From: Pseudomonadota bacterium
GTDB lineage: Bacteria > Pseudomonadota > Alphaproteobacteria > Rhizobiales > Aestuariivirgaceae
DNA: 64,000 nucleotides
NCBI GenBank assembly: GCA_963205315.1
Contig: CAUJIO010000023.1
Span: forward strand, 62,001 to 126,000
Direction: 5' to 3'
In this document: piece after piece, positions 10,308 to 25,059 of the stretch
Layout: every line of letters begins with the position of its first letter
Numbering within the stretch: position 1 is the stretch's first letter
Position numbers and translations under genes: made by a program
Notes under the pieces: model-generated
What the model was told of the DNA's origin: nothing
Database searches by the model: none
Seen by the model: only the letters and a program-made list of their open reading frames with translations

Positions 10308-10340
10308 AGGTACCCTATTGGTATAGTACTGGTTTAGACT

Positions 10341-11585
10341 TTGAATAACCATCAATATCAAGCCCTTCGGACTAAACTAGAACTCGCGCAGGATAAGGCT
10401 GGCGCCAGCTCTGCCGCGGTGGAAGAGTTCTTGCTTGACCTGCTCTCGTACGAGACAGACTGCTTAGAGGGATGCGTCAGAGCAAGTGCGGCTATCTCAG
10501 CTGCTATAGATGACGCTAATCTTGATTTGGAACTCCATGCCGCCAGCCAAGACGAGCACGGAACCCAGCCTCCGATTGTAATTGGCTGGCTGGGTCCACG
10601 TACTACTTCTCCGCGAATTCTTCTTTGTGCTCACGTTGACACTTCTCCCGCTGGAGACGGATGGCACTACAATTGCCGTGGTGAGCGGCAGAACGATTAC
10701 ATCTTTGGGCGTGGTGCAGCCGTATCAAAATCCGATATTGCTGTGTTCATTCACGCTTTGAAAGCTGCTCGCGATGCGCTGGGCACGATGCCGCATTCGT
10801 CGGCGGCGGTCGCGATCACTTGCGATGAAGGCAGCGGAGGAGATAAGGGCGCCGCTTACTTGATTGGATCCCTCAAGATGCGACCCGACCTTGTAGTAGC
10901 AGCAGGATTTACAGAAGCGATTACGATCGCGCACAACGGCTGTATCCAGCTCGTCCTGCGTTTGACCGGAACATCTTGCCACCAGTCGCAGGTTCCACCG
11001 CGCAGAGACACTCTTCGCCTAGCAGCGCAAATTTGTGCGCATCTCTACAATTATGCCGACGAGCTTTCCCTCGTACAGAGCAGTATTCCTGGACTTTCAC
11101 ATCCCACTTTAAATGTGACAAGAATCTCTGGAGGAACTGTTTTCGGAATGGCTCCCAGCACAGCCGAGATCTGGATCGATCGAAGAGTTTTGCCTGACGA
11201 GGACATCGAGGTCGCGCAAAGAGAACTGTTATCCACAATTGAGTCGGCATCTCACAGTTCGGATGTGACGATAGAGATCGACATTGTAAGAATCGCAAAA
11301 CCTATGCGCCCATCAGAAGGAATTGCGTTGATTGCGGATGTTCTGCGCGATGAAGCTTATAACGCTTTTGGTCGACGGATGGAGACGCAAGGAACAACGC
11401 TCTATACTGATGCACGTTGGTTTTCTAATGCGAACATTCCCACTGTCATGTACGGCGCGGGCGAAGCCGACGTTGCTGCCTCGGGCGCAAATGGCATCGA
11501 CGAACGTGTTCCTAAAGCGTTTCTCCGCGAGGCAACGGTGGTCCTTGCGAGAACGCTGACAAGATTGCTGTCAGATAGCGAGTGA
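10341..11585 (+). CDS. M20-family protein with degenerate metal site
   Basis: A 414-residue paralogue of the product of 3760-5025; both share AHNGC, LYTDAR and PTVxYGAG blocks. It keeps the first metal pair (LLCAHVDTSPAGDGW) and the domain His (GTSCHQSQ). However, the Glu pair is reduced to CDEGSGG (second Glu to Gly), the bridging Asp is lost (GRGAAVSKSD) and the final metal His region reads GANGIDERV, with Asn in the His position. It may therefore be a pseudoenzyme, a regulator or a diverged hydrolase. The start is TTG at 10341, directly after an in-frame stop, with a poor ribosome site. The next gene starts four bases after the stop, so the two are co-transcribed. Confidence 0.75.
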   Translation: MNNHQYQALRTKLELAQDKAGASSAAVEEFLLDLLSYETDCLEGCVRASAAISAAIDDANLDLELHAASQDEHGTQPPIVIGWLGPRTTSPRILLCAHVDTSPAGDGWHYNCRGERQNDYIFGRGAAVSKSDIAVFIHALKAARDALGTMPHSSAAVAITCDEGSGGDKGAAYLIGSLKMRPDLVVAAGFTEAITIAHNGCIQLVLRLTGTSCHQSQVPPRRDTLRLAAQICAHLYNYADELSLVQSSIPGLSHPTLNVTRISGGTVFGMAPSTAEIWIDRRVLPDEDIEVAQRELLSTIESASHSSDVTIEIDIVRIAKPMRPSEGIALIADVLRDEAYNAFGRRMETQGTTLYTDARWFSNANIPTVMYGAGEADVAASGANGIDERVPKAFLREATVVLARTLTRLLSDSE

Positions 11586-11589
11586 TACA

Positions 11590-12585
11590 ATGGCGCACTT
11601 TAGTTTCCAAGAAGCGACCGATTTGGTATACAATTGTTTCGTTGCAAATGGCTGTTCTGGACCAAATGCCCTGCAAACCGCTCGCGTTGTTGCCCTTGCA
11701 GAGGCGGATGGTTGTGCTTCACATGGACTTTTTCGAGTTCCAGGATATATTAGATCGCTGAGGAGCGGAAAGGTGAGCGGTTCTGCTGTTCCTCAGGTCT
11801 CGCTGAAGGCGCCGTCGGTTATCCAAGTGAATGGGGATGGGGGTTTCGCGCCGCCCGCTCATCATGCAGCCAGATCACTTGTTGTAGATACCGCAAAATC
11901 TGAAGGCATTGCGGTTGTAGGCTTTGTTAACATCTATCATTTCTCTGCTCTTTGGGCCGACATTGAGCCTATATGCGCGGAGAACCTCTGCGCCTTTGCG
12001 TTTACGAGCTACCTGCCCGCTGTTGCTCCCGCTGGTGGGACCAAAGCGTTGTTTGGGACCAATCCTATGGCGTTCGGGTGGCCACGCACTCACGCTCTCC
12101 CAATGATTTTTGATCAAGCATCTAGTGTGGTCGCGCGCGGCGAAGTCATGCTTGCAGCCCGTGACGGCCATACAATGGCTGAGGGTGTCGGTATCGATGC
12201 TCAAGGACACCCCACTACAGATCCGAAGGAGATCCTGGGTGGCGCGATGCTTCCCTTTGGCGGCTACAAGGGATCTGCTATTGCACTGATGGTTGAATTG
12301 CTGGCTGGACCGCTCATTGGTGAGGTTCTCTCATTTGAAGCTGCTGCAATTGATAATGCGGACGGTGGTCCACCTCGAGGGGGCGAACTACTTCTAGTAC
12401 TTTCACCCGATAGGATCGGAGGCGCCGACTGGTCGACGCAGTCTGAGAAACTCTTCGGGAAGATATCAGAGCAACCCGGTGCCCGACTTCCGGCAGATCG
12501 CAGATACTCGAACCGACAACGATCTATGCAATTGGGAATGAATATTCCTGATTCTGTTGTCGATAAAATCAAGGACCTGATGTGA
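11590..12585 (+). CDS. Ldh-family NAD(P)H-dependent oxidoreductase, DpkA/LhpD-like
   Basis: A 331-residue member of the malate/L-lactate/ureidoglycolate dehydrogenase (Ldh_2) family, which does not use a Rossmann fold. Diagnostic stretches are ASHGLFRVPGYIRSL at about residues 43-57, NIYHFSALW, FGTNPMAFGWPR, FDQASSVVARGEV and LPFGGYKGSAIALMVELLAG. The GTNPMAFGWPR and LPFGGxKGSA blocks resemble, from memory, delta1-piperideine-2-carboxylate/pyrroline-2-carboxylate reductase (DpkA/LhpD) more than ureidoglycolate dehydrogenase. It could reduce a cyclic imine made by the nearby cyclodeaminase-family enzyme, giving proline or pipecolate; AllD-type ureidoglycolate oxidation is the alternative, given the PuuE- and AllC-like genes. 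It is in tandem with the degenerate M20 gene. Confidence 0.83.
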   Translation: MAHFSFQEATDLVYNCFVANGCSGPNALQTARVVALAEADGCASHGLFRVPGYIRSLRSGKVSGSAVPQVSLKAPSVIQVNGDGGFAPPAHHAARSLVVDTAKSEGIAVVGFVNIYHFSALWADIEPICAENLCAFAFTSYLPAVAPAGGTKALFGTNPMAFGWPRTHALPMIFDQASSVVARGEVMLAARDGHTMAEGVGIDAQGHPTTDPKEILGGAMLPFGGYKGSAIALMVELLAGPLIGEVLSFEAAAIDNADGGPPRGGELLLVLSPDRIGGADWSTQSEKLFGKISEQPGARLPADRRYSNRQRSMQLGMNIPDSVVDKIKDLM

Positions 12586-12836
12586 ACCTCTTCCATTGTG
12601 ACGAGGCGCATTCAGTTGCGACGCAAGCGTTGCCGACAAAATGGATTCGCCGCCTACGTAAGTACAATTATTTACGCGACCATTGTGGAGAATGATTTAC
12701 AGGTTGACCATGACGCTGAGTCTGGCCGGGGGCGCCTATCTGACTTTGGAGTCGCATACCATGAAGATTGAACAAGCCCCCGCACGCGACCGACTCCATA
12801 ACTCGCTACCAAAGTGTGCGAGAAAAGGGCGAACTC

Positions 12837-13211
12837 ATGGAGCGTAGTATACTAGCCCCGAGCAGTCCAGACCAAGGTTTCAATGGAGTGGTTTGGTGCC
12901 GGATCGATCCTGATACAGCGTGGCGAAAGGCGACAATCGCGATCTCAGTTGCAACTGGCGCTTCAGCTGAGGGTGCGCGCGACTTCCTTGACAGTCAGTA
13001 TGGATGTTGCTCGGCTGATGACTTGTGCTGTGAGATAGAACCCGGCCTAAAATTCGACAGAACTCTGGCCATTGTCATGGAAAGTTGGTGTAATGAACGA
13101 ATTCCGCGAGCAACGAGCTGCGAAACAGGTATTCCGTCGAGCTTCTCGCATCTGACCGGATTTGCTCTGTATTTCACGCGAATTGCGGAGGCGAAGGGCA
13201 AATCGTCCTAA
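12837..13211 (+). CDS. Hypothetical protein of a mobile-element-associated type
   Basis: A 124-codon frame from the ATG at 12837, which has an AAGGG element about eight bases upstream; a longer TTG start at 12768 is less convincing. The protein starts MERSILAPSSPDQGFNGVVW and contains ATIAISVATGASAEGARDFL and a C-terminal TGIPSSFSHLTGFALYF. I have a memory of short hypothetical proteins with this layout on rhizobial plasmids and islands, but no function is known to me. No catalytic motif, signal or membrane segment is visible. The 250 bp before it and 220 bp after it hold nothing recognisable. Several unusual cysteines suggest it may be drifting. Confidence 0.45.
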   Translation: MERSILAPSSPDQGFNGVVWCRIDPDTAWRKATIAISVATGASAEGARDFLDSQYGCCSADDLCCEIEPGLKFDRTLAIVMESWCNERIPRATSCETGIPSSFSHLTGFALYFTRIAEAKGKSS

Positions 13212-13435
13212 TCCTCTAAATGCCAGACGTTCAGAAGTCAAAAACAAGCTAGTGCCTTGGCTTGAGCTAGCGACCATAACCTTGGACACCGCGCGCGGCA
13301 CACTCACGGGCTTTGGCGCTGCAGAACTCGCCTGCGGCAACTGCGACGGGAGGAAGGAATGGATAGCGGTCAAAGCACCAACAGGAAGATTTTGGAACAG
13401 CGGCGGCATGCAGGAAAGCAACCTATGGGAGATTA

Positions 13436-14503
13436 ATGAAGTCGGTGCCAGACGAAACCCAAAAACTTGCGAAAACGTCAGCTGAAGACGCCGCACGTTT
13501 TGTCAGCAAGGGCTCGGCATTCTTCAAGCTGGAGCGCGAGGCTATCCCCCGCGATTTCCACTTCCTGATGTTGCCAAAGATGACCATGCTGGCTTTCTCG
13601 GCGGCAGTGGAACCACTTCGAATCGCCAATCAGCTTACGGGCCAGTGCCTCTACCGCTGGTATCTCCTTACGGAAGAAGGAACGCCAGTCCGTTGCTCGA
13701 ACGGTATCTCCATCGTCGCTGACAATGCAATCGGACCCGTCGGCCGGCAAGACACTGTCTTCATCTGCTCTGGCGTAGACGGTTATCTGGCTGCGTCCGA
13801 GAAGACTTTGTCGTGGATTCGCTTACTCGCCCAGCACGGCCGCACTATTGGTGGATTGTGTACCGGTGCCTTTACACTGGCCCGCGCCGGAATGCTTGCC
13901 GGTAAGCGATTCACCCTCCACTGGGAGAACCAGTCGGCCTTCGAGGAATGCTTTCCTGAGCTTCCACCAACCAATCAGCTTTACTGCAGGGATGGCGCAC
14001 TCATCACCTGTGGCGGTGGCAACGCCTGCATCGACATGATGGTGTCTCTCATCAAGGAGCAGCATGGTGAAGGGCTTGCGACGCGTGTACTCGAGATGTG
14101 CCTGAATAGCGTCCACAGGCTCGGCGACAGAAACCAGCGCTTGTCGGTCGCCGCAGAAATTGGCATCCGTCATCCAAGGCTTATCGATATTCTCAACGAG
14201 ATGCGACGGAGTTTTGCAGAAGAAATCGATCTCGAAGCGATGGCTAATCGCCATTCCCTTTCCCGGCGCCAATTCGAGCGGCTTTTCCATGACAAGCTCG
14301 GCATCTCGCCCGGCCAGAAGCTCCGTGAGATCAGGCTGAACCATGCCAACAGCCTGCTGGCAGAAACTGATATGTCGGTTCTAGATATCTCCGTTGCAGC
14401 TGGATTTACTTCCGCAAACGCCTTTCGCATTGCCTATCGCAAGGCCTTTGGCGCAGCACCTTCTTCCCGCTTCAAAATGATTTATCCCGAAGATCGCACT
14501 TAA
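13436..14503 (+). CDS. GlxA-family AraC-type regulator with DJ-1/PfpI domain
   Basis: A 355-residue regulator with an N-terminal DJ-1/PfpI-like amidotransferase fold (about residues 40-215) and a C-terminal AraC double helix-turn-helix (about 250-350). The nucleophile-elbow cysteine is retained in TIGGLCTGAFTLARAG (Cys142). The HTH part includes EAMANRHSLSRRQFERLF and VAAGFTSANAFRIAYRKAFG. Relatives such as GbdR, ArgR and CdhR respond to betaines, carnitine or basic amino acids in pseudomonads and rhizobia. A GGGAG ribosome site precedes the ATG. It stands alone at the end of the catabolic island with decayed sequence on its right, so its target may be the amino-compound genes to its left; this is inferred. 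Confidence 0.87.
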   Translation: MKSVPDETQKLAKTSAEDAARFVSKGSAFFKLEREAIPRDFHFLMLPKMTMLAFSAAVEPLRIANQLTGQCLYRWYLLTEEGTPVRCSNGISIVADNAIGPVGRQDTVFICSGVDGYLAASEKTLSWIRLLAQHGRTIGGLCTGAFTLARAGMLAGKRFTLHWENQSAFEECFPELPPTNQLYCRDGALITCGGGNACIDMMVSLIKEQHGEGLATRVLEMCLNSVHRLGDRNQRLSVAAEIGIRHPRLIDILNEMRRSFAEEIDLEAMANRHSLSRRQFERLFHDKLGISPGQKLREIRLNHANSLLAETDMSVLDISVAAGFTSANAFRIAYRKAFGAAPSSRFKMIYPEDRT

Positions 14504-14629
14504 TGACCAGGCGACTCGAATAGTGGCCTGTCGGCGAGACAGAGGCTCACAAGTGCCGCTGGTAGACGGTCGCAACCTTTCATAACCCTCGTTGTGCGAA
14601 TGCAATAATTGACCGTCGGCACGCGGGAT

Positions 14630-15086
14630 TTACCCCTTACGCTTAGTGAATCGAAATTCTGTGGCACCTGCTTTCAGAGACAATTCCAGTAATTTTTCAT
14701 CGTAGTTGGGAAGATTCGCGTATTTGGCTGCGGCGGCTGCTACTGCGGCGCAATATGCGATCCCGACATGCACTGTCGAAACTAGAAAATTGAGTAAACG
14801 AGTCATGTCCAGTGGATGAGACCAGGTCTGTATCGCTATCGAAGATGCGGTGTCTCTCGCCGTCGACAAACGTATTGATCGCGGTCTCCAAGATAGCGTA
14901 GCCCAGAAATGAGTCGGCTGACCCATCAGGTTTAGTAAGAACGGTGGTAACTTCCGGTCGCCATTCGAGAGTCTTTTGGCTGAGCGATGGGTTTACATGT
15001 CCAATTGCAATGTTGCTGATGTACTTCGCGAATTCGAAGTTGCGTCGATGCGGTGTAATGATTTCCGATATTGCTGGATGAGTCTT
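14630..15086 (-). pseudogene. Frameshifted gene remnant of unknown function
   Basis: The 640-bp stretch between the GlxA regulator and the CBASS locus has no intact gene. On the minus strand, an open stretch without a start codon runs from 15086 and reads like real protein: ITPHRRNFEFAKYISNIAIG, then SLSQKTLEWRPEVTTVL, then AILETAINTFVDGERHRIF. Near 14800 the coding pattern moves to another frame, which continues with LLNFLVSTVHVGIAYCAAV and KYANLPNYDEKLLELSLKAG to a stop at 14630. Both the start and the reading frame are lost, so this is a dead gene. I do not recognise the family. Confidence 0.5.
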
Positions 15087-15143
15087 CTAAGGCTCACGAC
15101 AGATCAATTCAAGATCGGTAACGTTCGCGCACGAAACCAAAAG

Positions 15144-15263
15144 CTATTTGATAAGGACTAGTCTGACGCCGCGTTCATCTGGCCCGGCTTCAAGTGCAGC
15201 GTCGGCGGCGATGAGATCGCCGTGAGCTAGGCGGGCAGAAATTGCGACATGAACAAAATCCAT
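15144..15263 (-). CDS. Possible 39-residue protein after the capP-like gene
   Basis: A short frame from an ATG at 15263 reads MDFVHVAISARLAHGDLIAA and ends VRLVLIK. It begins 20 bp after the stop of the metallopeptidase gene in the same direction, and its composition is protein-like. An alternative ATG at 15329 would overlap the peptidase gene by 47 bp. The ribosome site is weak and no family is recognised. It could be a genuine third gene of the repressor-peptidase operon or a fragment. Confidence 0.3.
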   Translation of the reverse strand: MDFVHVAISARLAHGDLIAADAALEAGPDERGVRLVLIK

Positions 15264-15282
15264 GATCTGATCCGCTCGGGCG

Positions 15283-16206
15283 TTAGAGATCCGGAGCCTG
15301 ACCGCTTCGCACAAAACGATCGAAGACATCCGTCTCATCCTCTTCCGGCTGGAAACGCGGACCATCCGCCTCGAACTGCAGTACGGTGATTTCCTGATCA
15401 TATCGCTCAGAGCGAAAACACATCTCGTGCAACGGCTCTGGAAACCAGACCCCAGCCTGCTGCGTAACTCCGGTCAACGCAGCGTCGGAATAGTCGCGTT
15501 TTGCAGCAAAGGCCTGCGCGGGAAGTTCGAACAAGGTCTCTCTCGTGCGGATATAGCGCCCCGATCTAAGTGCTGCCGTGCTCGGTTTTGCCCAATGAGC
15601 GAAACCCTCATTCGACACCACCATGATCGCCCGCGTCTCCGTGTATTCGAGCCAGCGCAAGATCGCGGCGGTTAGTGAAACTCCGTAGCGCTTTGAAAGT
15701 CGGCTGAGCGTCTCGAAATCCGCGCGAGCCTTGGCTGGCAGTTGGCGGCGGAAGTCATGAAACGGCATTAGCAACGCAGCGGCAAACTCGTCGGCTTCCT
15801 TCTCGATGCCAGATCCAACTCGACGTACCACGGCATTCTCGTCACAATAAAGGCCACCGTCGAAACGCCTATCCTCCTCAATCAATTGGCGATGTAGAAC
15901 GTAGTGTGCGAACTCGTGTGCCACGGTAAACGAGCGACGGCCGTCAGACTGACCGACATGGTACAATATCGCCCATTGGCGCGGCAGCGCCTCCCCATAG
16001 ACTAACGCGCCGACGCAGCCCGGGATGTTGCGCTCGACGACCTCGTGGATGGGGCTGTCGGGCGCGATCTGACGAGAGTACTCTAGCGCGAGGCCGATCA
16101 CGTCGACCGGCATGCGGTCAAACCGATCCGCTCCAAGGACCACGTCGAGCATCTGGGTAATACGGGCGGCTTCCTTCAGCGGTCGGAGGCGGGTTGGATC
16201 GCTCAT
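15283..16206 (-). CDS. capP: CapP-like ImmA/IrrE (M78) metallopeptidase, CBASS regulator
   Basis: A 307-residue zinc peptidase of the ImmA/IrrE family. The motif VAHEFAHYVLH gives H97, E98 and H101; a downstream EKEADEFAAALLMPF supplies the third ligand region (E137/E140). Cys121 in LYCDENAV lies between these motifs and might act as a zinc-masking residue, which is conjecture. In characterised CBASS loci, CapP cleaves its partner repressor CapH when it senses DNA damage-associated single-stranded DNA and so turns the operon on. The position here fits: it overlaps the HTH gene by four bases and is divergent from a complete CBASS operon. An IrrE-like regulator of a prophage or integrative element is the alternative, but no phage genes are present. 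Confidence 0.8.
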   Translation of the reverse strand: MSDPTRLRPLKEAARITQMLDVVLGADRFDRMPVDVIGLALEYSRQIAPDSPIHEVVERNIPGCVGALVYGEALPRQWAILYHVGQSDGRRSFTVAHEFAHYVLHRQLIEEDRRFDGGLYCDENAVVRRVGSGIEKEADEFAAALLMPFHDFRRQLPAKARADFETLSRLSKRYGVSLTAAILRWLEYTETRAIMVVSNEGFAHWAKPSTAALRSGRYIRTRETLFELPAQAFAAKRDYSDAALTGVTQQAGVWFPEPLHEMCFRSERYDQEITVLQFEADGPRFQPEEDETDVFDRFVRSGQAPDL

Positions 16207-16523
16207 TTGCGGCTCTTCGTGTCAAGGATGCGCGCCATCTCGCGAATCTGCCGGCGCGTTTCCTCGGGTAGGCCGCTGTACTGTCGGAAGAAGGCGGTGT
16301 CCTCCGCCTCGCTGAGCGTCTGCGTGTCAGCTCCGAGCAGATAGTCGACAGTCACCCCCAATGCGCCTGCAATCGCAGAGAGCTTTTCGGCTGACGGCCG
16401 GGGCGGATTCTTATTCTCCAGCTCCCAGATGTAACTCTTCGACGAGCCGGTCGCCTGCGCCAACTGATCGAGTGTGAGGCCTTTTCTTGTTCTTAAGTCT
16501 TTGATCCGTTTCCCAAATGTCAT
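16203..16523 (-). CDS. capH: CapH-like HTH repressor, CBASS regulator
   Basis: A 106-residue XRE/Cro-type protein. The helix-turn-helix occupies about residues 5-65, with LTLDQLAQATGSSKSYIWEL followed by AEKLSAIAGALGVTVDYLL. The remaining 40 residues form a helical tail (LSEAEDTAFFRQYSGLPEET) of the size expected for a dimerisation and cleavage region. Known CapH proteins bind the CBASS promoter and repress it until CapP cleaves them. The stop overlaps the start of the peptidase gene (ATGA), so the two are co-translated. Its start lies 169 bp from the CD-NTase gene on the other strand, and that gap contains repeated GGAGTAG boxes suited to a shared operator. Confidence 0.8.
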   Translation of the reverse strand: MTFGKRIKDLRTRKGLTLDQLAQATGSSKSYIWELENKNPPRPSAEKLSAIAGALGVTVDYLLGADTQTLSEAEDTAFFRQYSGLPEETRRQIREMARILDTKSRK

Positions 16524-16534
16524 AGCGAATCCTT

Positions 16535-16623
16535 CTACTCGATCCGGCCGGCCGCCGTTCGGAGTAGTTATATCCTATGTACCTTGACAGACGCATTCAA
16601 GTTCTCCATTTTGTTCGGAGTAG
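16535..16623. promoter_or_regulatory. Candidate CapH operator and CBASS promoter
   Basis: The divergent gap holds an 11-bp direct repeat, GTTCGGAGTAG, at 16557-16567 and 16613-16623. The first copy is also one arm of an imperfect palindrome, since CTACTC at 16535-16540 mirrors GAGTAG around a GGCCGGCC core. A TTGACA box at 16584-16589 with CATTTT at 16607-16612 forms a plausible rightward promoter, and the second repeat overlaps its -10/+1 region. A leftward TATAAC sits beside the first copy. Binding at both boxes would repress both directions. Confidence 0.5.
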
Positions 16624-16692
16624 ACATATTTTTTGTTTTTACCATCCCGAACATCGCGCGGGCGGTGGCGAGATTCACAGACGTAGCCCGCC

Positions 16693-17952
16693 ATGGAGAT
16701 CGATGTGAGCATGCAGCATGGGCCGATTGGCCTCAATCCGTTCGATGACCCTCTTGACCGTGTCCTCGCGGAGATAGCGCTCAGCGTTCAACTTCCGTCC
16801 TCACTTCACGAAAAGGCGAAGTCGCGCTACGAGGCTGTGCGAAGCCATCTTGAGGCCAAGACCGCCTTTTTCGACCAAATCGAACACTTCTATCCTCAGG
16901 GCTCTATGGCGATCGACGCCACGATTTCGACGCGCGGTACCGACGACGAGTACGATCTCGACATCGTCTCGCAGCTCGGCGGCCGTTTCCGCGGCATGGC
17001 CCCACTTGAAATCCTGACCGAGCTCGAGGCCGCACTCGCTGACTATCCCGTCCAGCGAGTATTACGACAGACACGCTGCGTCACCTTGTTCTACTCCGAC
17101 AAGATGCATCTCGACGTCACGCCTTCTCTGCGGGTCCAGGACACCCTTGATCGCGAGAGCCTAATCACCCACGCCAGGGGCCCCCGCCCTTCGGCCGACG
17201 ATCGCCTCGTCGAGATGAACGCCTGTGGCTTCGCACAGTGGTATGTGAGCAGGACGCCGCTCGAGTTGCGAATGGCGAAGGAGTTCCACCGGCGATGGCT
17301 TGACCAGGCCCATCTTGCTGCCCGCGCCGACGCCGATGTGGACGATGTTCCGGATCAATGCCACTTCATCGTCAAGAACACGGCGACGCTCGCTCTGCAA
17401 CTCCTCAAGCGTTTCCGCAATATTCGTTACACCAGCTACACGGGGCGCATTCCGCCGTCGGTGATGCTGTCCTACTACGCCGGAATCGCTGCGCAGCCGA
17501 ACATGTCACTCAGCGCCATGCTCGTTCGCCTCGCGGGCTGGATCATCCGCGACATCGAGCAGGCCTCCATTTACCGACGGCTCCTGCATGTCGCGAATCC
17601 GGTCTGCATGGCCGATGTCTTCACCGATCGGTGGCCCGAATCCGTTGCACAGCAGGACGAGTTCGCCGAGCATCTGCGCGAGCTCATCCGTTCGCTCGAG
17701 GCAATGCGCAAGGGGGAGGTATTCCCCGACAACATGATGTGCACGTTGCGGGAGAACTTCGGAGACCGCGTCGTAACCCGGGCCGCTGAAGAGATCGCTA
17801 CCGAGATCGGCCGCGGTATCCGACAATCTCGCCAGCTCTACACGCGGCGCGGCGGCATCCTGTTGCCCTCTGCCGTTACGGTCGCTGCACCGATCGTCAA
17901 TCCGGCGGTTCCGGCGGTGAGGCCCCACACCTTCTTCGGGCGCAAGATCTGA
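16693..17952 (+). CDS. CD-NTase (cGAS/DncV-like nucleotidyltransferase) of a CBASS system
   Basis: A 419-residue nucleotidyltransferase that would make a cyclic oligonucleotide signal on phage infection. The catalytic signature is visible: YPQGSMAIDATIS (Gly70-Ser71), EYDLDIV (Asp88 and Asp90) and KMHLDVTP (Asp141 as third metal ligand). A helical C-terminal lobe follows, as in SMODS-type synthases. The C-terminus reads PHTFFGRKI, so the last residue is Ile and the nearest Gly is four from the end. This matters because E2-type partners usually conjugate the synthase through its C-terminus. The stop overlaps the E2 gene start (TGATG). The ribosome site for ATG 16693 is weak, and an ATG at 16711 is an alternative. 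The clade and the signal product cannot be read by eye. Confidence 0.87.
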   Translation: MEIDVSMQHGPIGLNPFDDPLDRVLAEIALSVQLPSSLHEKAKSRYEAVRSHLEAKTAFFDQIEHFYPQGSMAIDATISTRGTDDEYDLDIVSQLGGRFRGMAPLEILTELEAALADYPVQRVLRQTRCVTLFYSDKMHLDVTPSLRVQDTLDRESLITHARGPRPSADDRLVEMNACGFAQWYVSRTPLELRMAKEFHRRWLDQAHLAARADADVDDVPDQCHFIVKNTATLALQLLKRFRNIRYTSYTGRIPPSVMLSYYAGIAAQPNMSLSAMLVRLAGWIIRDIEQASIYRRLLHVANPVCMADVFTDRWPESVAQQDEFAEHLRELIRSLEAMRKGEVFPDNMMCTLRENFGDRVVTRAAEEIATEIGRGIRQSRQLYTRRGGILLPSAVTVAAPIVNPAVPAVRPHTFFGRKI

Positions 17953-18404
17953 TGGCGACGACGATCCTCCCCATCGACAAGCAAGTCGCAGCGATGAAGG
18001 CGACGTGGCCGCAGTTCGCGGCGCGCCGGATTGACCGCCGCGAGCAGACAGCGCGGTGGGAAGGGAGCGTGAGGCCGCAATTTGCGAGCTATATACTTGA
18101 GATCCGCTACGAGCTCGGATCGTTTCCCGACGTGCGGGTGCTGTCGCCAGAGCTGGTCCGATTGCCGGGCAATTCCGAGGGCCAACTTCCCCATGTTTAT
18201 CCACCGGCCGAGGATCCGACGCTGTGCCTGTTCGATCCTCGTGAGGGGGAATGGACACCGGCGATGACCATCGCCAGCACGACCGTCCTTTGGGCGATTG
18301 ATTGGCTCGCCTGCTATGAACTCTGGCTAATGACCGGACGCTGGACCGGCGGCGGGCGGCACGCCGGATCGGCATCCGCCGAAGCAAAGGAGACAATGCA
18401 ATGA
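17952..18404 (+). CDS. Stand-alone E2-like (ubiquitin-conjugating-fold) CBASS accessory protein
   Basis: A 150-residue protein with the layout of bacterial E2-like CBASS accessories: LEIRYELGSFPDVRVLSPEL (strand-rich core), LPHVYPPAEDPTLCLFDP with the likely catalytic Cys92 and His81, and a Trp-rich tail WLACYELWLMTGRWTGGGRH. In E2-only (type II-short) systems, this protein forms a thioester-type link to the CD-NTase C-terminus and raises its activity, without a separate E1 or JAB protease. No E1/ThiF or JAB domain gene is present between the synthase and the effector. It overlaps both neighbours, TGATG upstream and ATGA downstream, so the three proteins are made in fixed ratio. Confidence 0.82.
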   Translation: MATTILPIDKQVAAMKATWPQFAARRIDRREQTARWEGSVRPQFASYILEIRYELGSFPDVRVLSPELVRLPGNSEGQLPHVYPPAEDPTLCLFDPREGEWTPAMTIASTTVLWAIDWLACYELWLMTGRWTGGGRHAGSASAEAKETMQ

Positions 18405-19435
18405 GCTATACACCGCCGCGCCGTTCCGACGGCACCATCCAACATGCTCGCGTAAAGCAGCCATGGCCGCAGGGCAGACCGTTTCGTATTCTGTCGATCG
18501 ACGGTGGTGGCATTCGCGGAGTGTTCCCTGCAGCAGTCTTAGCCGAACTCGAAAAGCGCTTTTTGGACGGTACTTCCACTATCAATCACTTTGACATGAT
18601 CGCGGGTACCTCGACAGGCGGCATCATCGCGCTCGCCCTTGCCCAAGGGATGACGGCACAACAGGCATTGAACATCTATCTAGAGCGCGGCGAGCTTATC
18701 TTCCCGCCAGCAGCCGGGCTCGGCAAGATATCCAGGGTGCTGCGCTGGTTTTTCAAACCGAAGCACGACCAGGCGACCCTGAAGGAGGAGTTGCTGCGGA
18801 TCTTTGGCGATAAGGTACTCGACGATGCCGCCACCCGGCTGGTGATCCCGAGCTTCGAAGGGCGCCACGGTGAGCCGTTCCTCTACAAAACACCGCACCA
18901 CCCCGACTACCAGAAAGACCGGCACAAGAAGTTCGCTCATGTGGCGCTCCACACGACGGCGGCCCCATCTTATTATCCCGGTGTCGAGGACGACGGCTAT
19001 ATTATGATCGATGGCGGCATCTGGGCCAACAATCCGGTCATGAACGCCCTGGTCGATGCCCTCGCATGTTTCGACATCACGCGCGAAGACGTACGTATCC
19101 TGAGCCTGGGAACAGGTGAGTCCACCTTCACTGTCGATGAACGGGCACGCAACGGCGGCATCAAGGATTGGGCGTTCATGCGCTCTTTCAATGCGGCCGC
19201 CCGCGCCCAATCCCGCAATGCTCTCGGCCAAGCCTACCTGCTGGTTGGCAAGAACAACGTCACACGGATCGATATGCCAGAAAACGACGCGCCGATCGCA
19301 TTGGATGACGTGCAGCGCTCCATCCGAGAGCTACCGATGGTAGCGCGCAGCCTCGTCGAAGGCACCGGGCATCACATCCAGCGGGTGTTTCTGGACAGCC
19401 CAGTCGAGCAATTCAGTCGATGGCCGATGATGTAG
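18401..19435 (+). CDS. capV: CapV-like patatin phospholipase, CBASS effector
   Basis: A 344-residue patatin-like phospholipase. The oxyanion motif ILSIDGGGIRGVFPA lies at about residues 30-44, the lipase motif GTSTGG has the nucleophile Ser71, and the DGG motif in IMIDGGIWANNP supplies Asp204 of the Ser-Asp dyad. CapV effectors bind the cyclic nucleotide made by the CD-NTase and degrade the inner membrane, killing the infected cell. The gene is last in the operon and overlaps the E2 gene by four bases. Its 3' end overlaps the convergent cysteine-rich gene by 23 bp. All catalytic motifs are intact, so the system looks functional. The full length fits CapV rather than a fragment. Confidence 0.9.
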   Translation: MSYTPPRRSDGTIQHARVKQPWPQGRPFRILSIDGGGIRGVFPAAVLAELEKRFLDGTSTINHFDMIAGTSTGGIIALALAQGMTAQQALNIYLERGELIFPPAAGLGKISRVLRWFFKPKHDQATLKEELLRIFGDKVLDDAATRLVIPSFEGRHGEPFLYKTPHHPDYQKDRHKKFAHVALHTTAAPSYYPGVEDDGYIMIDGGIWANNPVMNALVDALACFDITREDVRILSLGTGESTFTVDERARNGGIKDWAFMRSFNAAARAQSRNALGQAYLLVGKNNVTRIDMPENDAPIALDDVQRSIRELPMVARSLVEGTGHHIQRVFLDSPVEQFSRWPMM

Positions 19436-19898
19436 GTGTCTCATTGGGCGTTCGTTCCGACCGGAATGTCAGCAGCCGACAGGCGAGCTCGCGTTCGCCC
19501 CACCGGGTCGAGAAGGTATCCGAGACCTCGAACCAGCTGCTGTCATTGCCGATGCCATGGTTGGCACCCATGCAGGAACACTGACATTCGTGGCCTCCTG
19601 CTTCCTGGCATGCTCGCGCGCAGACCTCCTGCTTGCGATATGGCTGGATGATGTACACCTTGCCGTAGCGCTGCAGAGCCCGATTGACAAAGTCGTTGAA
19701 CCAGGATTTCGGCAACTCCCAATATGCGGCTGCCCCGCCGATCCATTCAGGTGACGTTCGTCGCCCGTTTTGAAGCCATCGTCTATTGTCGTCGCCGTAA
19801 GGCACTCTCGCCCGTATCCGCTGGCCACGACCCGTTCGACGTAGAATAACAGGAACGCTGCCTTGCCTCCAGATATGATTGAGGTCGAACAGCGCCAT
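19413..19898 (-). CDS. Cysteine-rich orphan protein next to CBASS
   Basis: A 161-residue protein of no recognised function. The start at 19898 is set by a perfect GGGGGAGG ribosome site; a longer frame to 19961 has none. It begins MALFDLNHIWRQGSV and has a central WELPKSWFNDFVNRAL helix followed by a cysteine cluster at 93, 97, 105, 107 and 109 (VCARACQEAGGHECQCSC), which could bind zinc or an iron-sulfur cluster. I recall similar orphan proteins on alphaproteobacterial mobile elements, without known role. No HTH, membrane or nuclease motif is visible. It converges on capV and overlaps its last 23 bases. A defence accessory role is possible but unsupported. Confidence 0.6.
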   Translation of the reverse strand: MALFDLNHIWRQGSVPVILRRTGRGQRIRARVPYGDDNRRWLQNGRRTSPEWIGGAAAYWELPKSWFNDFVNRALQRYGKVYIIQPYRKQEVCARACQEAGGHECQCSCMGANHGIGNDSSWFEVSDTFSTRWGERELACRLLTFRSERTPNETPTSSAID

Positions 19899-19988
19899 TA
19901 TGACCTCCCCCGAATCAGCAATCCTTCCTAAGATTATTGATTTTCCTAACTCTGGCACCACACACTTGTCTATTTGTGAGGAGACTGA

Positions 19989-20219
19989 TCAGCAAAGGTC
20001 AGCACATTCGACCGATCGCCACCAGCCAAGGCTATCAAGCTCCTGAACCCGGAGAGTACATACTCCACCGGCCTGATACAGACTGTTGCAGAAGGCGCCG
20101 TCGATTGCGACCTCGGCTTCAAACTGGAAGGCGTATCGACCGGCAGGCGTAAAGAAGTTCTGTCTCAAATTCGTTCGACCTTTTCTGCTCGACTTCCGGC
20201 GCAGAGCAAGCATTGCTAG
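19989..20219 (+). pseudogene. Coding-like fragment without a start codon
   Basis: The 437-bp gap between the cysteine-rich gene and the DUF3489 gene contains a 76-codon open stretch with protein-like composition but no ATG, GTG or TTG in frame. It includes LIQTVAEGAVDCDLGFKLEG and ends RSTFSARLPAQSKHC. It looks like the 3' remnant of a gene cut by insertion or deletion at the island junction. The family is not recognised. The rest of the gap shows nothing. Confidence 0.3.
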
Positions 20220-20335
20220 CGACATGAAGATGGGGACGTAGGTGCACCCGATGCGGACAGCGACGGCCTCGCATGATTGCGGGGCTTCAGGTGGTGCAAG
20301 AGCCAGATTGGTTGGCTCTGAACAGGAGCACCACG

Positions 20336-20593
20336 ATGACCAAGACCACCAAACCGAAGGCTAAGAAGGCCACGGCAGCAAAGTCCAGGAGCAAAACCGA
20401 GCAAGTTCTCAACCTACTTGGGCGCCCATCGGGGGCCTCCATCACCGAGATGATGAAGTCGACTGGCTGGCAAGCGCATAGCGTCCGGGGTCTTCTGGAA
20501 GGGAGCCTGAAGAAGAAGGGTCATGCCGTCTCCAGCGAGCTTGATATAGGTGGTGTCCGCCGTTACCGGCTCGCTGCAACGGTGGAAGCATGA
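20336..20593 (+). CDS. DUF3489 domain protein of the integration module
   Basis: An 85-residue basic protein. After a lysine- and alanine-rich N-terminus (MTKTTKPKAKKATAAKSRSK) comes a winged-helix-like region, EQVLNLLGRPSGASITEMMK followed by GWQAHSVRGLL. This is the DUF3489 layout, a small DNA-binding-like domain commonly found beside DUF2924 and recombinase genes in alphaproteobacterial elements. The ATG at 20336 has a GGAG site. Its stop overlaps the start of the DUF2924 gene, so the two are translationally coupled. It may regulate or assist the recombinase, which is inference from gene order. Confidence 0.75.
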   Translation: MTKTTKPKAKKATAAKSRSKTEQVLNLLGRPSGASITEMMKSTGWQAHSVRGLLEGSLKKKGHAVSSELDIGGVRRYRLAATVEA

Positions 20594-21144
20594 ACAGCGG
20601 GTACAACCGACAGGTCACCAAGGCAGGCGGCGTGTTGCCTGCCGGGGATCAGCTGGCCGGCTTAGGGAGCAAAAGCGGCCTGGAAGAAGCTCTCGAGGCC
20701 TTGGAGAACCTCGATATCTCCAAGCTTCAGATGCGCTGGCGGGAGTTGTTCAGCCGCAACGCCCCTGCCCGGCTCGGCGTTGACCTGCTGCGGCGTGCGA
20801 TCGCCAATCGGCTCCAGGAACTGGAGCTCGGCGGCCTCAGCCGACAGGCGCTGCTGCGCCTTAGGGCGTCGAGTGGTAGAGTTGGGAAGACCTCTACTGG
20901 TCGAGGGAGTTCGTCATCGCCAGCTCTGGTTAAACCCGGCACCCGCTTTGTCCGGGAGTGGCAGAACGATGTGCATGAGGTTCAGGCAATCGATACAGGC
21001 GACTTCGTCTACCGGGGCAAGACTTTCCGAAGCCTCTCATTGATCGCAAAGGCGATCACCGGCACCCACCAGTCCGGCCCCCGCTTCTTCGGCATCGGGA
21101 AGAATGTCTCCGCGGCAAGTAACCGGGAGGCGATCTATGGCTGA
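20590..21144 (+). CDS. DUF2924 domain protein of the integration module
   Basis: A 184-residue protein of the DUF2924 family. The core reads LQMRWRELFSRNAPARLGVD followed by LLRRAIANRLQELELGGLSR, and the C-terminal part contains GTRFVREWQNDVHEVQAID and YRGKTFRSLSLIAKAITGTH, which resembles a small beta/helix DNA-binding domain. DUF2924 proteins almost always accompany large serine recombinases in this order. It overlaps the DUF3489 gene by four bases and the recombinase gene by eight. The biochemical role is unknown; a recombination directionality or targeting function is a reasonable guess. Confidence 0.78.
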   Translation: MNSGYNRQVTKAGGVLPAGDQLAGLGSKSGLEEALEALENLDISKLQMRWRELFSRNAPARLGVDLLRRAIANRLQELELGGLSRQALLRLRASSGRVGKTSTGRGSSSSPALVKPGTRFVREWQNDVHEVQAIDTGDFVYRGKTFRSLSLIAKAITGTHQSGPRFFGIGKNVSAASNREAIYG

Positions 21145-22888
21145 GCGTACCCCTGTGAAGCGCTGCGCCATCTATGTCCGCAAATCCTCTGAGGAAGGCC
21201 TCGACATGAGCTATAATTCACTTGAGGCTCAGAGCGATGCCTGTGCCGCCTACATCGCCAGCCAGCGCCATGAAGGCTGGGTGAAGCTCGCAAAGGTCTA
21301 TGAGGACGGTGGCTACTCCGGCGGCAACATGGAGAGGCCCGGTCTGCAGCAACTCCTCGTCGACGTTGCAGGCGGCAAGGTCGACATCATCGTCGTCTAC
21401 AAGATCGACCGCCTCACCCGGTCCCTGACCGATTTCGCACGGTTGAATGAGGTACTGGATCAGAACAACGTGTCCTTCGTGGCCGTCACCCAGCAGTTCA
21501 ACACGTCTACATCGATGGGACGGCTGACCCTCAACGTCCTGCTCTCCTTTGCCCAGTTCGAGCGCGAGGTCGCAGGTGAGCGCATCCGGGACAAGGTCGC
21601 AGCCTCCAAGAAGAAGGGCATGTGGATGGGTGGCCCTCTCCCCTTGGGCTACGCCGTCAAGGACCGGAAGCTCGTCATCGTGCGTGACGAGGCAGAGATC
21701 GTCCGCGGCATGTTCAGGCGGTATCTGGAGCTCCGCTCTGTGCATCTGCTGCAGAAGGAGTTGGAGCAACGGGGTGTCAGATCGAGAATCCGGCCGCTGA
21801 AGGATGGCCGAACGCTGGGCGGTCTCGTCCTCGGCCGGGGCGCCATCGCCCACATGCTGAAGAACCCTCTCTATGTCGGTCAGATCCGCTATCAGGGCGA
21901 ACTGCATGGTGGGCAGCACGAAGCGATCATCACCAAGGAGCTTTTCGACGCTGTTCAGGCAACTTTGGACGAGCAGTCACCCGGAGAGGAAGCGCGGGTC
22001 AAGAGACCGACCGGCGACCTTCTCAAGGGCAAGGTCTTCGACGGCAGCGGCAGCCGCATGCAACCAACCTACAGCAACAAGAAGGGTGTCCGGTACCACT
22101 ACTATACATCGTCGAAGCGCCTGCGGTCGGCAAGCGATGATCCGAATGGCATCCGGGTTCCGGCAGGCGATCTCGAGCGGTTGGTGATCTCGGCTGTCGC
22201 AGATCGGTTGAGGGATGCCAATCAGATGCAGCAGTGGCTCGCACCCCGGACGTCACCGTCAGAGCTCCTTGGCCTTCTGAGGCGCTGCGCAGATCTTGCC
22301 TCGCACACTTCATGCAGACCCTTAACAGACACGACCAAAGCCATTGATCTGATTCAGAAAGTGGCGGTCACGAAAAGGAAGATTGAAGTCCTGATCTCAA
22401 GTCAGGAGCTTCAGAACCAACTCGGTTTCGCGGCAGCGTCTCATCAGCAGCAAGGCATCAGTCGCGACGGAATACATTCCGCCAACACTTGCGAAGAACC
22501 TGATCGAGATACAGATGACGATGCACTGCGTGTCGTCATCGCCAGCCATCTCCTCAGATGTGGCAAACAGGTAAAGCTTGTCCTCGGGCATGAGCCCGAT
22601 GGGACTAAGAAGGCGAATCCACAGCTGGTCGACATGATCGTCAAGACGCGACGCTGGTACGAAGGGCTCACCTCAAGGCGGTATCCAACACTGCGTTCAA
22701 TTGCGGCTGAGGAGCAGTGTGACAAATCTTATGTCAGCCGCCTGCTCTCGATCGCCTTCCTCGCACCCGACATCGTCGAAAGCATCTTGACCGGAGATCA
22801 CGCAGCAACATTCACGCCCGAGCGGCTGCGCAAGGCGTGTCCCCTTCCATTGCGATGGGAAGAGCAGCGCGCCATGTTACTCGACTGA
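21137..22888 (+). CDS. Large serine recombinase (site-specific integrase)
   Basis: A 583-residue recombinase. The resolvase catalytic domain covers about residues 9-160, with CAIYVRKSSEEGLDMSYNSL (catalytic Ser17 or Ser18) and IVVYKIDRLTRSLTDFARL. The recombinase domain follows with PLPLGYAVKDRKLVIVRDEA and MLKNPLYVGQIRYQGELHGG. The zinc-ribbon region lacks the usual cysteines (FDGSGSRMQPTYSNKKGVRY), as in many rhizobial relatives from memory. A GGGAGG site precedes the ATG at 21137; an upstream ATG at 21104 has no such support. It ends 277 bp from the 3' end of tRNA-Val, so it probably drove integration of the island to its left. No second copy of the tRNA end is seen in the window. Confidence 0.88.
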   Translation: MAERTPVKRCAIYVRKSSEEGLDMSYNSLEAQSDACAAYIASQRHEGWVKLAKVYEDGGYSGGNMERPGLQQLLVDVAGGKVDIIVVYKIDRLTRSLTDFARLNEVLDQNNVSFVAVTQQFNTSTSMGRLTLNVLLSFAQFEREVAGERIRDKVAASKKKGMWMGGPLPLGYAVKDRKLVIVRDEAEIVRGMFRRYLELRSVHLLQKELEQRGVRSRIRPLKDGRTLGGLVLGRGAIAHMLKNPLYVGQIRYQGELHGGQHEAIITKELFDAVQATLDEQSPGEEARVKRPTGDLLKGKVFDGSGSRMQPTYSNKKGVRYHYYTSSKRLRSASDDPNGIRVPAGDLERLVISAVADRLRDANQMQQWLAPRTSPSELLGLLRRCADLASHTSCRPLTDTTKAIDLIQKVAVTKRKIEVLISSQELQNQLGFAAASHQQQGISRDGIHSANTCEEPDRDTDDDALRVVIASHLLRCGKQVKLVLGHEPDGTKKANPQLVDMIVKTRRWYEGLTSRRYPTLRSIAAEEQCDKSYVSRLLSIAFLAPDIVESILTGDHAATFTPERLRKACPLPLRWEEQRAMLLD

Positions 22889-22913
22889 TTCAACAGCAAA
22901 ACGCGATGTGACT

Positions 22914-22936
22914 GCCCGGCCGAGTGCCGGGCTTCT
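22914..22936 (+). terminator. Hairpin terminator after the recombinase gene
   Basis: GCCCGGC (22914-22920) and GCCGGGC (22926-22932) form a seven-pair stem with a five-base loop, followed by TTCT. It lies 25 bp after the recombinase stop. The U-tract is weak. The rest of the 277 bp up to the tRNA shows only short dyads and no gene. Confidence 0.5.
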
Positions 22937-23165
22937 CACTTCGTGATCTCGATACGGCACATCGATACGCGCGATGCGCTTTTTCGTGGTGCATCATTCC
23001 GTTGACCAGAATTTGGGGATGCAGAGATTCCAGCCGAGAAACTCGGGCAAAGAGACCGCAAAAACGGATGGTCTCGCAAACAGAGACGACGACGCTCCTG
23101 TAACCTCCGGAAATGTCGGAGGAACTCGCAAAGCACCACGGTACTGAGGTTTGGTCAAAAGAGAA

Positions 23166-23240
23166 TGGTGGGTGGTACAGGGATCGAACCTGTGACCCCT
23201 ACCATGTCAAGGTAGTGCTCTACCGCTGAGCTAACCACCC
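23166..23240 (-). tRNA. tRNA-Val (anticodon GAC)
   Basis: The minus strand folds as a complete 75-nt tRNA with an encoded CCA end. The acceptor stem is GGGTGGT/ACCACCC, the D arm is GCTC-AGCGGTA-GAGC, the anticodon arm is CTACC-TTGACAT-GGTAG with anticodon GAC, and the T arm is CACAG-GTTCGATC-CTGTA-like. The 3' end points left, towards the recombinase and the AT-richer island. It marks the junction between accessory and core sequence. Confidence 0.95.
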
Positions 23241-23628
23241 ACGCCTGACATCAAGAAGCGCCCCTATAGCTGGCCTCGCGGAGGAGCGCAAGCGTTGTCG
23301 AAGCGATTATTTTCAGGGCTGGAATCAGCCCGGACTATGAAATCCGGAGCGTTCGCGTGCTGGCTGCGGGATGTTCAAACGCGGCCTACGCATAAAGGCT
23401 GAAAATTACATCCGGGCTGATCAGCAGGGACAAGACCATCGGCGGTGACGAGCGTGTGTGCTGCCTGATTCGGCGGGAACGGGGTTGTTGGCGCTGGTGA
23501 AATCATTCGCATCGATGTCCGGGCCCGTCGCGCAAAACCCGCACGGCCTCAATCAAGCCGAATTCAACGCAGGGAACTTTCGCGGGAAAGGTGTTGGCCG
23601 GCGGGTGAGGAATCGAATTGCGGGTTTT
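23241..23628. other. Gene-free region upstream of tRNA-Val
   Basis: About 390 bp lie between the 5' end of tRNA-Val and the cpdR stop. The tRNA promoter must be here, but no clear boxes stand out. An open frame on the plus strand from 23458 continues across cpdR and is judged a shadow. I see no RNA gene, repeat or further protein gene. Confidence 0.5.
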
Positions 23629-23988
23629 TCAGGCAGCCATCATGCGCTCGACCTCGGCGACGAGATCGCGCAGATGGAACGGCTTGGAAAGAACCTTGGC
23701 GTCCTTGGGTGCCTTGGAATCGGGATGAAGAGCCACGGCGGCAAAGCCGGTGATGAACATGATCTTCAGCGCCGGATCGAGTTCGGAGGCGCGGCGCGCC
23801 AGTTCGATACCGTCCATTTCCGGCATGACGATGTCGGTGAGCAGCAAGTCGAAGGTCGTCTGCTTGATCTCCTCGAAGGCACTCGCGCCCTCGCCGAAGC
23901 TCTGCACCTGATGGCCAGCCTTCTCCAGCGCTTTCACCAGAAAGCGCCGCATGTCGTCATCGTCTTCTGCAAGAATGATTTTGGCCAT
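23629..23988 (-). CDS. cpdR: Response regulator CpdR
   Basis: A 119-residue single-domain receiver starting MAKIILAEDDDDMRRFLVKA, with the phospho-acceptor Asp52 in LLLTDIVMPEMDG, the Thr in KIMFITGFAAVAL and the conserved Lys in VLSKPFHLRDLV. It has no output domain, as expected for CpdR. In Caulobacter and Sinorhizobium, unphosphorylated CpdR goes to the pole and primes ClpXP to degrade cell-cycle regulators; the CckA-ChpT relay phosphorylates and inactivates it. The ATG at 23988 matches the usual N-terminus; upstream codons in the frame are not conserved-looking. It is monocistronic on the core side of the tRNA. Confidence 0.92.
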   Translation of the reverse strand: MAKIILAEDDDDMRRFLVKALEKAGHQVQSFGEGASAFEEIKQTTFDLLLTDIVMPEMDGIELARRASELDPALKIMFITGFAAVALHPDSKAPKDAKVLSKPFHLRDLVAEVERMMAA

Positions 23989-24158
23989 GGTCTTCGCTGT
24001 CATTCTACCCGTCATCCACCCGGTTTGGGAACACCCCAATGCACCGGAAGCCGTTTTAATGGTCAGGGGTAAATGGGGTATGAAGCCTGCACCGCTCTGG
24101 ACAGTTGATCACGGCTCATGGATGATATGAGCAATACCTTGGCATAGATGTTGCCGGC

Positions 24159-25049: not shown

Positions 25050-25059
25050 CTGCAACAAG

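Follow-up and report, generated by a model that had tools for sequence, protein, structure and literature searches.

A probable type II-short CBASS with a CapH/CapP-type control module at the recombinase end of an alphaproteobacterial genomic island

Organization of the locus

This study concerns a candidate cyclic oligonucleotide-based antiphage signalling system (CBASS) in an alphaproteobacterium of the family Aestuariivirgaceae (Rhizobiales; assembly GCA_963205315.1). The locus occupies positions 15283-19435 of a 64,000-nucleotide stretch of contig CAUJIO010000023.1 (positions 62,001 to 126,000 of the forward strand), here called the window. Re-reading of the window confirmed five intact open reading frames (ORFs) at these coordinates (Table 1). 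Two genes on the minus strand, capP and capH, are divergent from a plus-strand operon of a cGAS/DncV-like nucleotidyltransferase (CD-NTase), a stand-alone E2-like protein and the phospholipase CapV. The original prediction, made from the sequence without database searches, described the operon genes as fused by overlapping codons. The overlaps are present, with 1 nt shared by the CD-NTase stop and the E2 start (TGATG) and 4 nt by the E2 stop and the CapV start (ATGA), but the genes are separate. It also described a divergent helix-turn-helix (HTH) gene and an ImmA/IrrE peptidase gene that overlap each other and face the operon, and called all catalytic motifs intact. Both statements held: the capH stop and capP start overlap by 4 nt, and the motifs of CapP, the CD-NTase, the E2 and CapV were all located in the translations. 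The gap between capH and the cyclase gene is 169 bp and should carry the promoters of both divergent operons.

In profile searches each of the five proteins matched the CBASS part expected of it, with PADLOC E-values from 8.6e-36 to 6.2e-174, far past chance level. No Pfam match to ThiF (E1) or JAB (Cap3) was found in the ten window proteins encoded between 13.4 and 22.9 kb, and E1 was not searched for elsewhere in the genome. These data suggest, with a probability of about 0.8, that the locus is a type II-short CBASS under damage-responsive CapH/CapP control, located in a genomic island, at its recombinase end. None of the parts is of a new kind, and relatives commonly show the pairing with CapH/CapP.

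Table 1. Coordinates of the CBASS genes, promoter elements and island features, and of the sigma-like trios of six relatives (window positions unless a locus handle is given)
Feature	Position	Strand	Description and evidence
capP	15283..16206	-	307 aa M78 (ImmA/IrrE-type) zinc peptidase; PADLOC, Pfam, PDB, motifs
capH	16203..16523	-	106 aa Cro/C1-type HTH repressor; PADLOC, Pfam, PDB, alignment
O1, upstream copy of GTTCGGAGTAG (11 bp)	16557..16567	+	putative CapH operator; conservation in close loci, genome count
TTGACA	16584..16589	+	putative -35 of CBASS promoter; CTTGACAG in 13/13 intergenic regions
O2, downstream copy of GTTCGGAGTAG	16613..16623	+	identical in 13/13 close loci
CCGAAC	16647..16652	-	inverted partial repeat copy, weak; in 9/13 regions, variants in other 4
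CD-NTase (CBASS cyclase)	16693..17952	+	419 aa; PADLOC PDLC00800, PDB 7ljn, motifs
Stand-alone E2-like protein	17952..18404	+	150 aa, Cys92; PADLOC, PDB 8hsb_B, predicted fold
CapV patatin-like phospholipase effector	18401..19435	+	344 aa; PADLOC, NCBIfam CBASS_lipase, PDB
Cys-rich gene	19413-19898	-	161 aa
DUF3489	20273-20593	+	Pfam 8.5e-22
DUF2924	20590-21144	+	Pfam 1.2e-36
Large serine recombinase	21104-22888	+	Pfam Resolvase 1.7e-36, Recombinase 3e-14; PHROG integrase 3.3e-101
tRNA-Val(GAC)	23166..23240	-	ARAGORN; 3' end is right island border
Sigma-like + small protein + peptidase trio	L026:3200-5012
Sigma-like + small protein + peptidase trio	L028:3213-5151
Sigma-like + small protein + peptidase trio	L042:3209-5060
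Sigma-like + small protein + peptidase trio	L048:3228-5000
Sigma-like + small protein + peptidase trio	L076:3335-5183
Sigma-like + small protein + peptidase trio	L077:3324-5102

The control module and its promoter region

CapP is matched by the PADLOC capP model (8.5e-73, model positions 2-242 of 242) and by Pfam Peptidase_M78 (1.2e-16), and the only PDB chain it matched was 7t5t, labelled 'CapP toxin' (8.3e-47). The motif HEFAH lies at residues 97-101 with E135 as the presumed third ligand, and H97, E98, H101 and E135 are invariant in all 32 aligned sequences. CapH is matched by PADLOC capH (8.6e-36) and Pfam HTH_3 (5.6e-13), and shares a C-terminal AFFRxY..L segment with the CapH of Thauera sp. 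K11 in an alignment. Its best PDB chain is 7t5u (7.2e-18), an entry labelled only as an HTH protein, which we take to be a CapH structure. A conserved cysteine is reportedly a regulatory switch of CapP; Cys121 of the window protein is near the Thauera cysteine but does not align with it, and several CapPs do not have that cysteine.

Published work describes activation of CapP by single-stranded DNA, followed by cleavage of CapH and derepression of the neighbouring operon (PMC13373217, PMC10904395, PMC10233336). By analogy, the two-gene switch of the window probably turns the operon on upon DNA damage.

The capH-cyclase gap contains two direct copies of the 11-bp repeat GTTCGGAGTAG around a promoter-like box. 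These were compared in 13 close loci, namely the window and the 12 loci of its own clade with a readable capH-cyclase region. O1 is present in all 13, exact in 9 and with one or two changes in 4, and the distance from the start of O1 to the start of CTTGACAG is exactly 26 bp in every one. The spacing of the repeat pair is 56-57 bp in 13/13, and three plasmid loci (L096, L097, L105) carry the pair at the same spacing. A CATTTT-like -10 was read by eye about 17 nt past TTGACA. The exact 11-mer occurs twice in the 4.67-Mb genome, both times in the capH-cyclase gap. The repeat pair is a specific and mutable operator candidate.

Single copies of the repeat were also found beside capH genes of other operons. 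One lies 100 bp upstream of capH in Methylorubrum extorquens AM1 and another 24 bp upstream of capH on Rhizobium rhizogenes pColt5.8d, whose CapPs are 60% and 55% identical, respectively, to that of the window; the 14.9-kb R. rhizogenes stretch holds one extra copy elsewhere, and 3 of the 68 remaining survey loci have a stray single copy. The window cyclase, E2 and CapV profiles gave no match in the AM1 or R. rhizogenes stretch. In AM1 the neighbours encode an E2-E1 protein (Prok-E2_A and ThiF) and a protein resembling metallo-beta-lactamases that stays below the Pfam cut-off; on pColt5.8d they are patatin-like and CBASS/SAVED genes. Because these single copies lie near capH on operons without a profile match to the window cyclase, the repeat motif follows CapH and not the cyclase. 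On the AM1 megaplasmid (L094:2759-6374), CapP with its one repeat copy faces the metallo-beta-lactamase-like and E2-E1 operon, and judging by its gene content the CapH/CapP switch has apparently moved there to another ubiquitin-like operon. This fits the report that CapW or CapH+CapP adjoins 219 of 544 Bub operons (PMC13373217), in that such switches would serve other ubiquitin-like operons as well.

It could be argued that the HTH/peptidase pair is instead an ImmR/ImmA-type excision switch of the island that lies beside the CBASS by chance. The two kinds of pair belong to one fold family, CapH/CapP has been described as parallel to ImmR/ImmA (PMC10233336), and the pair sits in an island with a serine recombinase. 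However, among the models the pair is matched best by capP and capH and among PDB chains by CapP, while the PHROG matches of the pair are weaker (2e-26 and 1.3e-18); an ImmR/ImmA identity was rejected on these best matches, and the assignment to CapH/CapP made in the original prediction stands. The pair also stays with the E2 operon across different backgrounds, plasmids included, and both exact copies of the repeat in the genome lie in the capH-cyclase gap, away from the recombinase. An excision switch is thus considered very improbable.

Distribution of the switch among E2-bearing loci

Species genomes were scanned with an E2 alignment; 100 stretches matched, 92 encoded relatives, and the best 80 of these 92 were surveyed. 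The ORFs around each E2 were searched with profiles grown from the window proteins, and exceptions were inspected by eye and recounted. The survey used one peptide pattern and leans to this type of E2 and to Alphaproteobacteria, and relatives were classed as E2-only by ORF size and not by a screen for E1 or JAB. A two-gene capH+capP was present in 38/80 loci, 32 of them with the pair divergent from the cyclase and a peptidase of at least 239 aa, and 6 with a short peptidase (173-205 aa). A one-chain HTH-M78 protein was found in 23/80, 19 by script and four on inspection (L050 and L075, which a contig edge truncates; L035, whose gene is on the opposite strand; and L029, with only an HTH half read and no HExxH in it). 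Six loci carry a sigma-like gene, a small protein and a CapP-type peptidase (L026, L028, L042, L048, L076, L077), and two carry a WYL regulator (L078, L080; Pfam WYL). No regulator was recognised by profiles or by eye in 7/80 (L073, L085, L086, L087, L088, L090, L092), and 4/80 were uninformative, with no cyclase (L024, L030) or little readable sequence (L019, L083). In the window's own clade the two-gene switch is present in all 12 loci whose capH-cyclase region could be read (cyclase identity 70-88%); L019, L024 and L030 belong to this clade and are incomplete.

A peptidase-type regulator of some form was read in 66/80 loci. The combination of an E2-only core with CapH/CapP had been thought possibly rare, and the survey counts rule this out: with the two-gene switch in nearly half of the E2-bearing relatives and in every readable locus of the clade, the pairing is common. 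These counts point to damage-responsive peptidase switches as the normal means of restraint in this CBASS group; an E2-only CBASS would then usually be held off at the promoter.

The PADLOC capP model matched all 32 proteins of the two-gene type that were scanned, from the window and 31 loci (L065, which has unknown residues, was excluded), all 12 from loci with a short peptidase or a sigma-type trio, and all 20 one-chain proteins scanned, of which the one inspected in detail matches RmrA models better. Across 32 loci including the window, the Mantel correlation of cyclase and CapP distances was 0.85 (0 of 2000 permutations as high); that of cyclase and E2 distances was tighter, at 0.98. By its identities to the window (cyclase 47%, CapP 22%), L036 looks like a switch swap.

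The E2 model PDLC00877 had matches in 10 of 385 sampled genomes of the class, including this one, two of them with an internal stop. A cyclase match was found in 2 of 37 genomes of the genus, again including this one, the other at 33% identity. Relatives of the E2 were found by tblastn in 61 of 72,556 plasmid records and in 1 of 50,697 phage records.

Several relatives are incomplete. A decayed locus on Bradyrhizobium diazoefficiens pNK6c (L098:5259-8484) has a Mutator-type transposase gene against a shortened cyclase, cyclase and CapV are both split in L046:5255-7995, and CapP is shortened with a deviating end in L013:4032-4751. These loci, with L024 and L030, lend some weight to the idea that the window locus, though its sequence is intact, is cargo that is silent or decaying. 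Against it, the five ORFs, their overlaps and the promoter repeats are all intact in the window, and the idea is given very little credence.

Variants of the regulator slot

In the six loci with a trio, the place of capH is taken by the sigma-like gene and a gene for a 135-155 aa protein, followed by a peptidase matched by the capP model. Five of the sigma-like proteins were compared with Pfam; L076 passes for Sigma70_r2 (26.8 bits, cut-off 24), L077 and L042 match below the cut-off, and L026 and L048 have no match. A profile of all six sequences matches extracytoplasmic function (ECF) sigma factors in the PDB at 2e-4. The same profile has matches in 62 of 289 genomes, which by look are mostly ordinary ECF sigma factors. 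The small partner in L026 is matched by the capH model at 8e-7 and has no HTH in Pfam. Among the papers listed in literature searches, judged by titles and the openings of abstracts, no description of such a trio beside CBASS was found. From these similarities it is possible that the trio is a sigma/anti-sigma/peptidase damage switch. If so, damage-activated proteolysis would start transcription in these six relatives through a sigma factor and not through removal of a repressor.

Other arrangements were seen in passing. Twenty one-chain HTH-M78 proteins (L031-L066) replace capH+capP beside E2-bearing CBASS, and next to the one-chain protein of L035 and of L050 lies a PIN-like gene (below the Pfam cut-off), in the style of a toxin-antitoxin pair. 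On a Roseivivax marinus plasmid (L141:4443-6188), two hypothetical genes and an ImmA/IrrE gene are divergent from a nucleotidyltransferase/hypothetical/SAVED operon, possibly an arrangement like the trio on another CBASS; a homologue of the Cys-rich protein of the window adjoins it.

The cyclase tail and the stand-alone E2

The CD-NTase is matched by the PADLOC cyclase model PDLC00800 (6.2e-174) and Pfam SMODS, and carries GS at residues 70-71, EYDLDI at 86-91 and LDVTP at 140-144. The closest solved cyclase is PDB 7ljn (1.5e-115 over residues 15-417). The window cyclase ends in HTFFG-RKI. Tails were read in 79 cyclases beside E2s, including that of the window and leaving aside L024 and L030, using the pattern H[TNR][FNH] followed by one or two residues and G, which was chosen after the ends had been viewed. 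The pattern (HxxxG) is fitted by 63/79 cyclases, with 1 to 6 residues behind the glycine, and none of the 63 stops on the motif glycine. In systems with Cap2 and Cap3 the last residue of the cyclase is a conserved Gly or Ala, according to a study of 1,583 cyclases (PMC10097602; also PMC11153139).

The E2 has no Pfam or NCBIfam match but is matched by PADLOC (3.4e-58) and by the PDB sequence 8hsb_B (1.8e-20). Cys92, in LCLFD, and its neighbours are invariant in 35/35 aligned E2s. A structural model built from the 35-sequence alignment reached a predicted local distance difference test (pLDDT) of 85.7 and a predicted template modelling score (pTM) of 0.80. A Foldseek search of the PDB with this model placed 8yjy_B first (E 2.1e-8, template modelling score 0.77), with 8hsb_B at 1.4e-7; after this Serratia marcescens partner, ubiquitin-type E2 folds follow from E 0.055 on. 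Sequence and predicted fold thus agree in making the 150-residue protein an E2 homologue, as had been supposed.

A 2024 study of the S. marcescens system reportedly found that the E2 processes the cyclase C-terminus and poly-conjugates the cyclase. A lone E2 cannot rely on an E1 that spends ATP on the C-terminus; the peptide bond that follows the glycine could naturally supply the energy instead, and the HTFFG-RKI signature is fitting for an E2 that uses the tail as a leaving group. Cyclase-cyclase conjugation has been proposed for a type II-short system (PMC11153139). The tail signature offers a simple test of how a lone E2 could work without E1.

Alternatively, the switch may work while the E2 is dispensable or structural, with the cyclase activated directly as in type I CBASS. 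The ten window proteins scanned with Pfam gave no match to E1 or Cap3, which is in keeping with this, as is the observation that a four-gene type II system stops phage P1 without Cap2 (PMC10097602). However, the invariance of Cys92 and its neighbours, the retention of the E2 gene with overlapping codons, and a cyclase that ends in a conserved glycine and short tail argue for a working E2, and dispensability is considered unlikely.

The effector, the island and neighbouring genes

CapV is matched by the PADLOC phospholipase effector model (1.2e-118), Pfam Patatin and NCBIfam CBASS_lipase (249 bits, cut-off 200), and by CBASS patatins in the PDB at about 3e-39; its motifs are GGGIRG at residues 35-40, GTSTG at 69-73 and DGG at 204-206. 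A Cys-rich gene is convergent with capV. It is intact in 5 of the 12 close loci and fragmentary in 2 (L017, L027), and is also intact in L002, L024, L030 and L096-L098. Homologues on plasmids adjoin Shedu-, AAA/exonuclease- and HipA-type genes, and the model of the protein (pLDDT 60.9) was too poor for a fold search. Given its presence in 5/12 close loci and the other neighbours of its homologues, a role as a CBASS part is unsupported; the gene is a recurrent companion in defence islands.

Right of the locus, the recombinase module leads to tRNA-Val(GAC). Some part of the stretch 22900-25100 was matched in 36 of 37 genomes of the genus, including this one, and in a few the tRNA alone; among the matches listed, these begin at about 23164, the 3' end of the tRNA, or later, with one short exception. 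This supports the view of the region as a mobile island, with its right end at a site used by other inserts in the genus. One genome (G398) has the same recombinase module with other neighbours at tRNA-Val(GAC). Another (G394) carries an insert of 16.6 kb that looks phage-like by eye and has a 52-bp repeat of the end of the tRNA on either side. The tRNA-Val(GAC) is an integration hotspot of the genus (window 23166-23240; L133:2219-18926; L129:8575-11386).

The left border was not found: a second tRNA-Val end was tried as the candidate, and the genome holds no near-identical copy (best others 79-80%). G+C content is 0.51-0.54 at 1-16000, 0.59-0.60 at 16001-20000, which covers most of the CBASS, and 0.57-0.65 further right, with the onset of the low-G+C stretch lying about 14 kb beyond the left end of the window. 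Positions 1-15500 and the 14 kb to the left (L139) hold, by eye, M20-type peptidases, hydantoinase- and urease-like genes and an ABC sugar transporter; these low-G+C metabolic genes are apparently cargo of the CBASS island.

Discussion

The genes with their motifs and homologies, the predicted E2 fold, the architecture and conservation of the repeats, the tail signature and the right island border come from the analysis itself. For CapH binding, activation by single-stranded DNA, CapH cleavage, the E2 chemistry, the nucleotide made and the anti-phage action, the model below draws on relatives. In uninfected cells CapH would sit on the repeats bracketing the divergent promoter and keep both operons low. 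Phage attack or DNA damage would generate single-stranded DNA and activate the zinc peptidase CapP, which would cleave CapH and so derepress the cyclase-E2-CapV operon. Cys92 of the E2 may then attack the glycine in the HTFFG-RKI tail, so that RKI is released and a thioester arises with no E1 involved, and transfer to lysines, perhaps of other cyclases, would activate the cyclase. The cyclic nucleotide would switch on CapV, which would degrade membrane phospholipid and kill the infected cell.

Some of the data weigh against this reading. The 11-mer is expected about twice in a 4.67-Mb genome by arithmetic, and a reversed control pattern occurs three times. With a chance count of about 2, the weight rests on the occurrence of both copies in one 169-bp gap and on their conservation, not on their number. 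A generic promoter scan did not report the proposed CBASS promoter, whose -35 and -10 were read by eye. Among the cyclases, 16/79 fall outside the HxxxG pattern: 12 have longer tails after HNFH, 3 have NT.FG or NTHFG followed by D or ER, and 1 has HKFYG and 9 further residues. Four of the 79 end in Gly (L067, L074, L078) or Ala (L076), and in L076 the Ala comes straight after the motif glycine, an end conceivable for a Cap2-type cyclase. Finally, the proposed E2 chemistry rests on what is reported of the S. marcescens system.

A broader proposal is that E2-only CBASS combines an E1- and ATP-independent, sortase-like transpeptidation, with the tail as leaving group, and an exchangeable damage-switch slot in which a CapP-type peptidase can be paired with a repressor, fused to one or, in six relatives, accompanied by a sigma-like protein and a small partner. 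This proposal is tentative and is considered somewhat more apt to fail than to hold. The five-gene cassette is a clean and compact example of two regulated steps that can be studied side by side, namely transcription through CapH/CapP and activation of the cyclase through a lone E2. Of the findings, the candidate operator, the tail rule and the exchangeable slot for a regulator deserve to be kept, most of all the sigma-like version of that slot.

In DdrO/PprI and ImmR/ImmA, as proposed for the window, a metallopeptidase removes a repressor after DNA damage (PMC10904395 and PMC10233336), but these govern the damage response or mobile elements, whereas the window pair matches CapH/CapP best. The type II CBASS of Bacillus cereus has CapP-CapH upstream, as in the window, an arrangement already published (PMC11153139), but it has Cap2 (E1-E2) and Cap3, which the operon of the window does not. 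Thauera sp. K11 likewise has a two-gene switch divergent from a cyclase operon; its CapP agrees by eye with 7t5t, and its CapH is similar but not identical to 7t5u. However, the Thauera switch faces a cyclase, a hypothetical protein, an AAA ATPase and NucC, which looks like a type III CBASS, whereas the window system is E2-only. The cyclase of 7ljn is presumably CdnG of Bradyrhizobium diazoefficiens. Its look-alike by eye in genome G361 (L005) is followed by an E2, as in the window, and ends in HTNMG-ERR where the window cyclase ends in HTFFG-RKI. A structure of B. diazoefficiens CdnG exists (PMC12804361). The CdnG-E2 of S. marcescens (8hsb, 8yjy), a type II-short CBASS, has a stand-alone E2 beside its CD-NTase as in the window, although the window cyclase matches SmCdnG weakly (2.7e-6).

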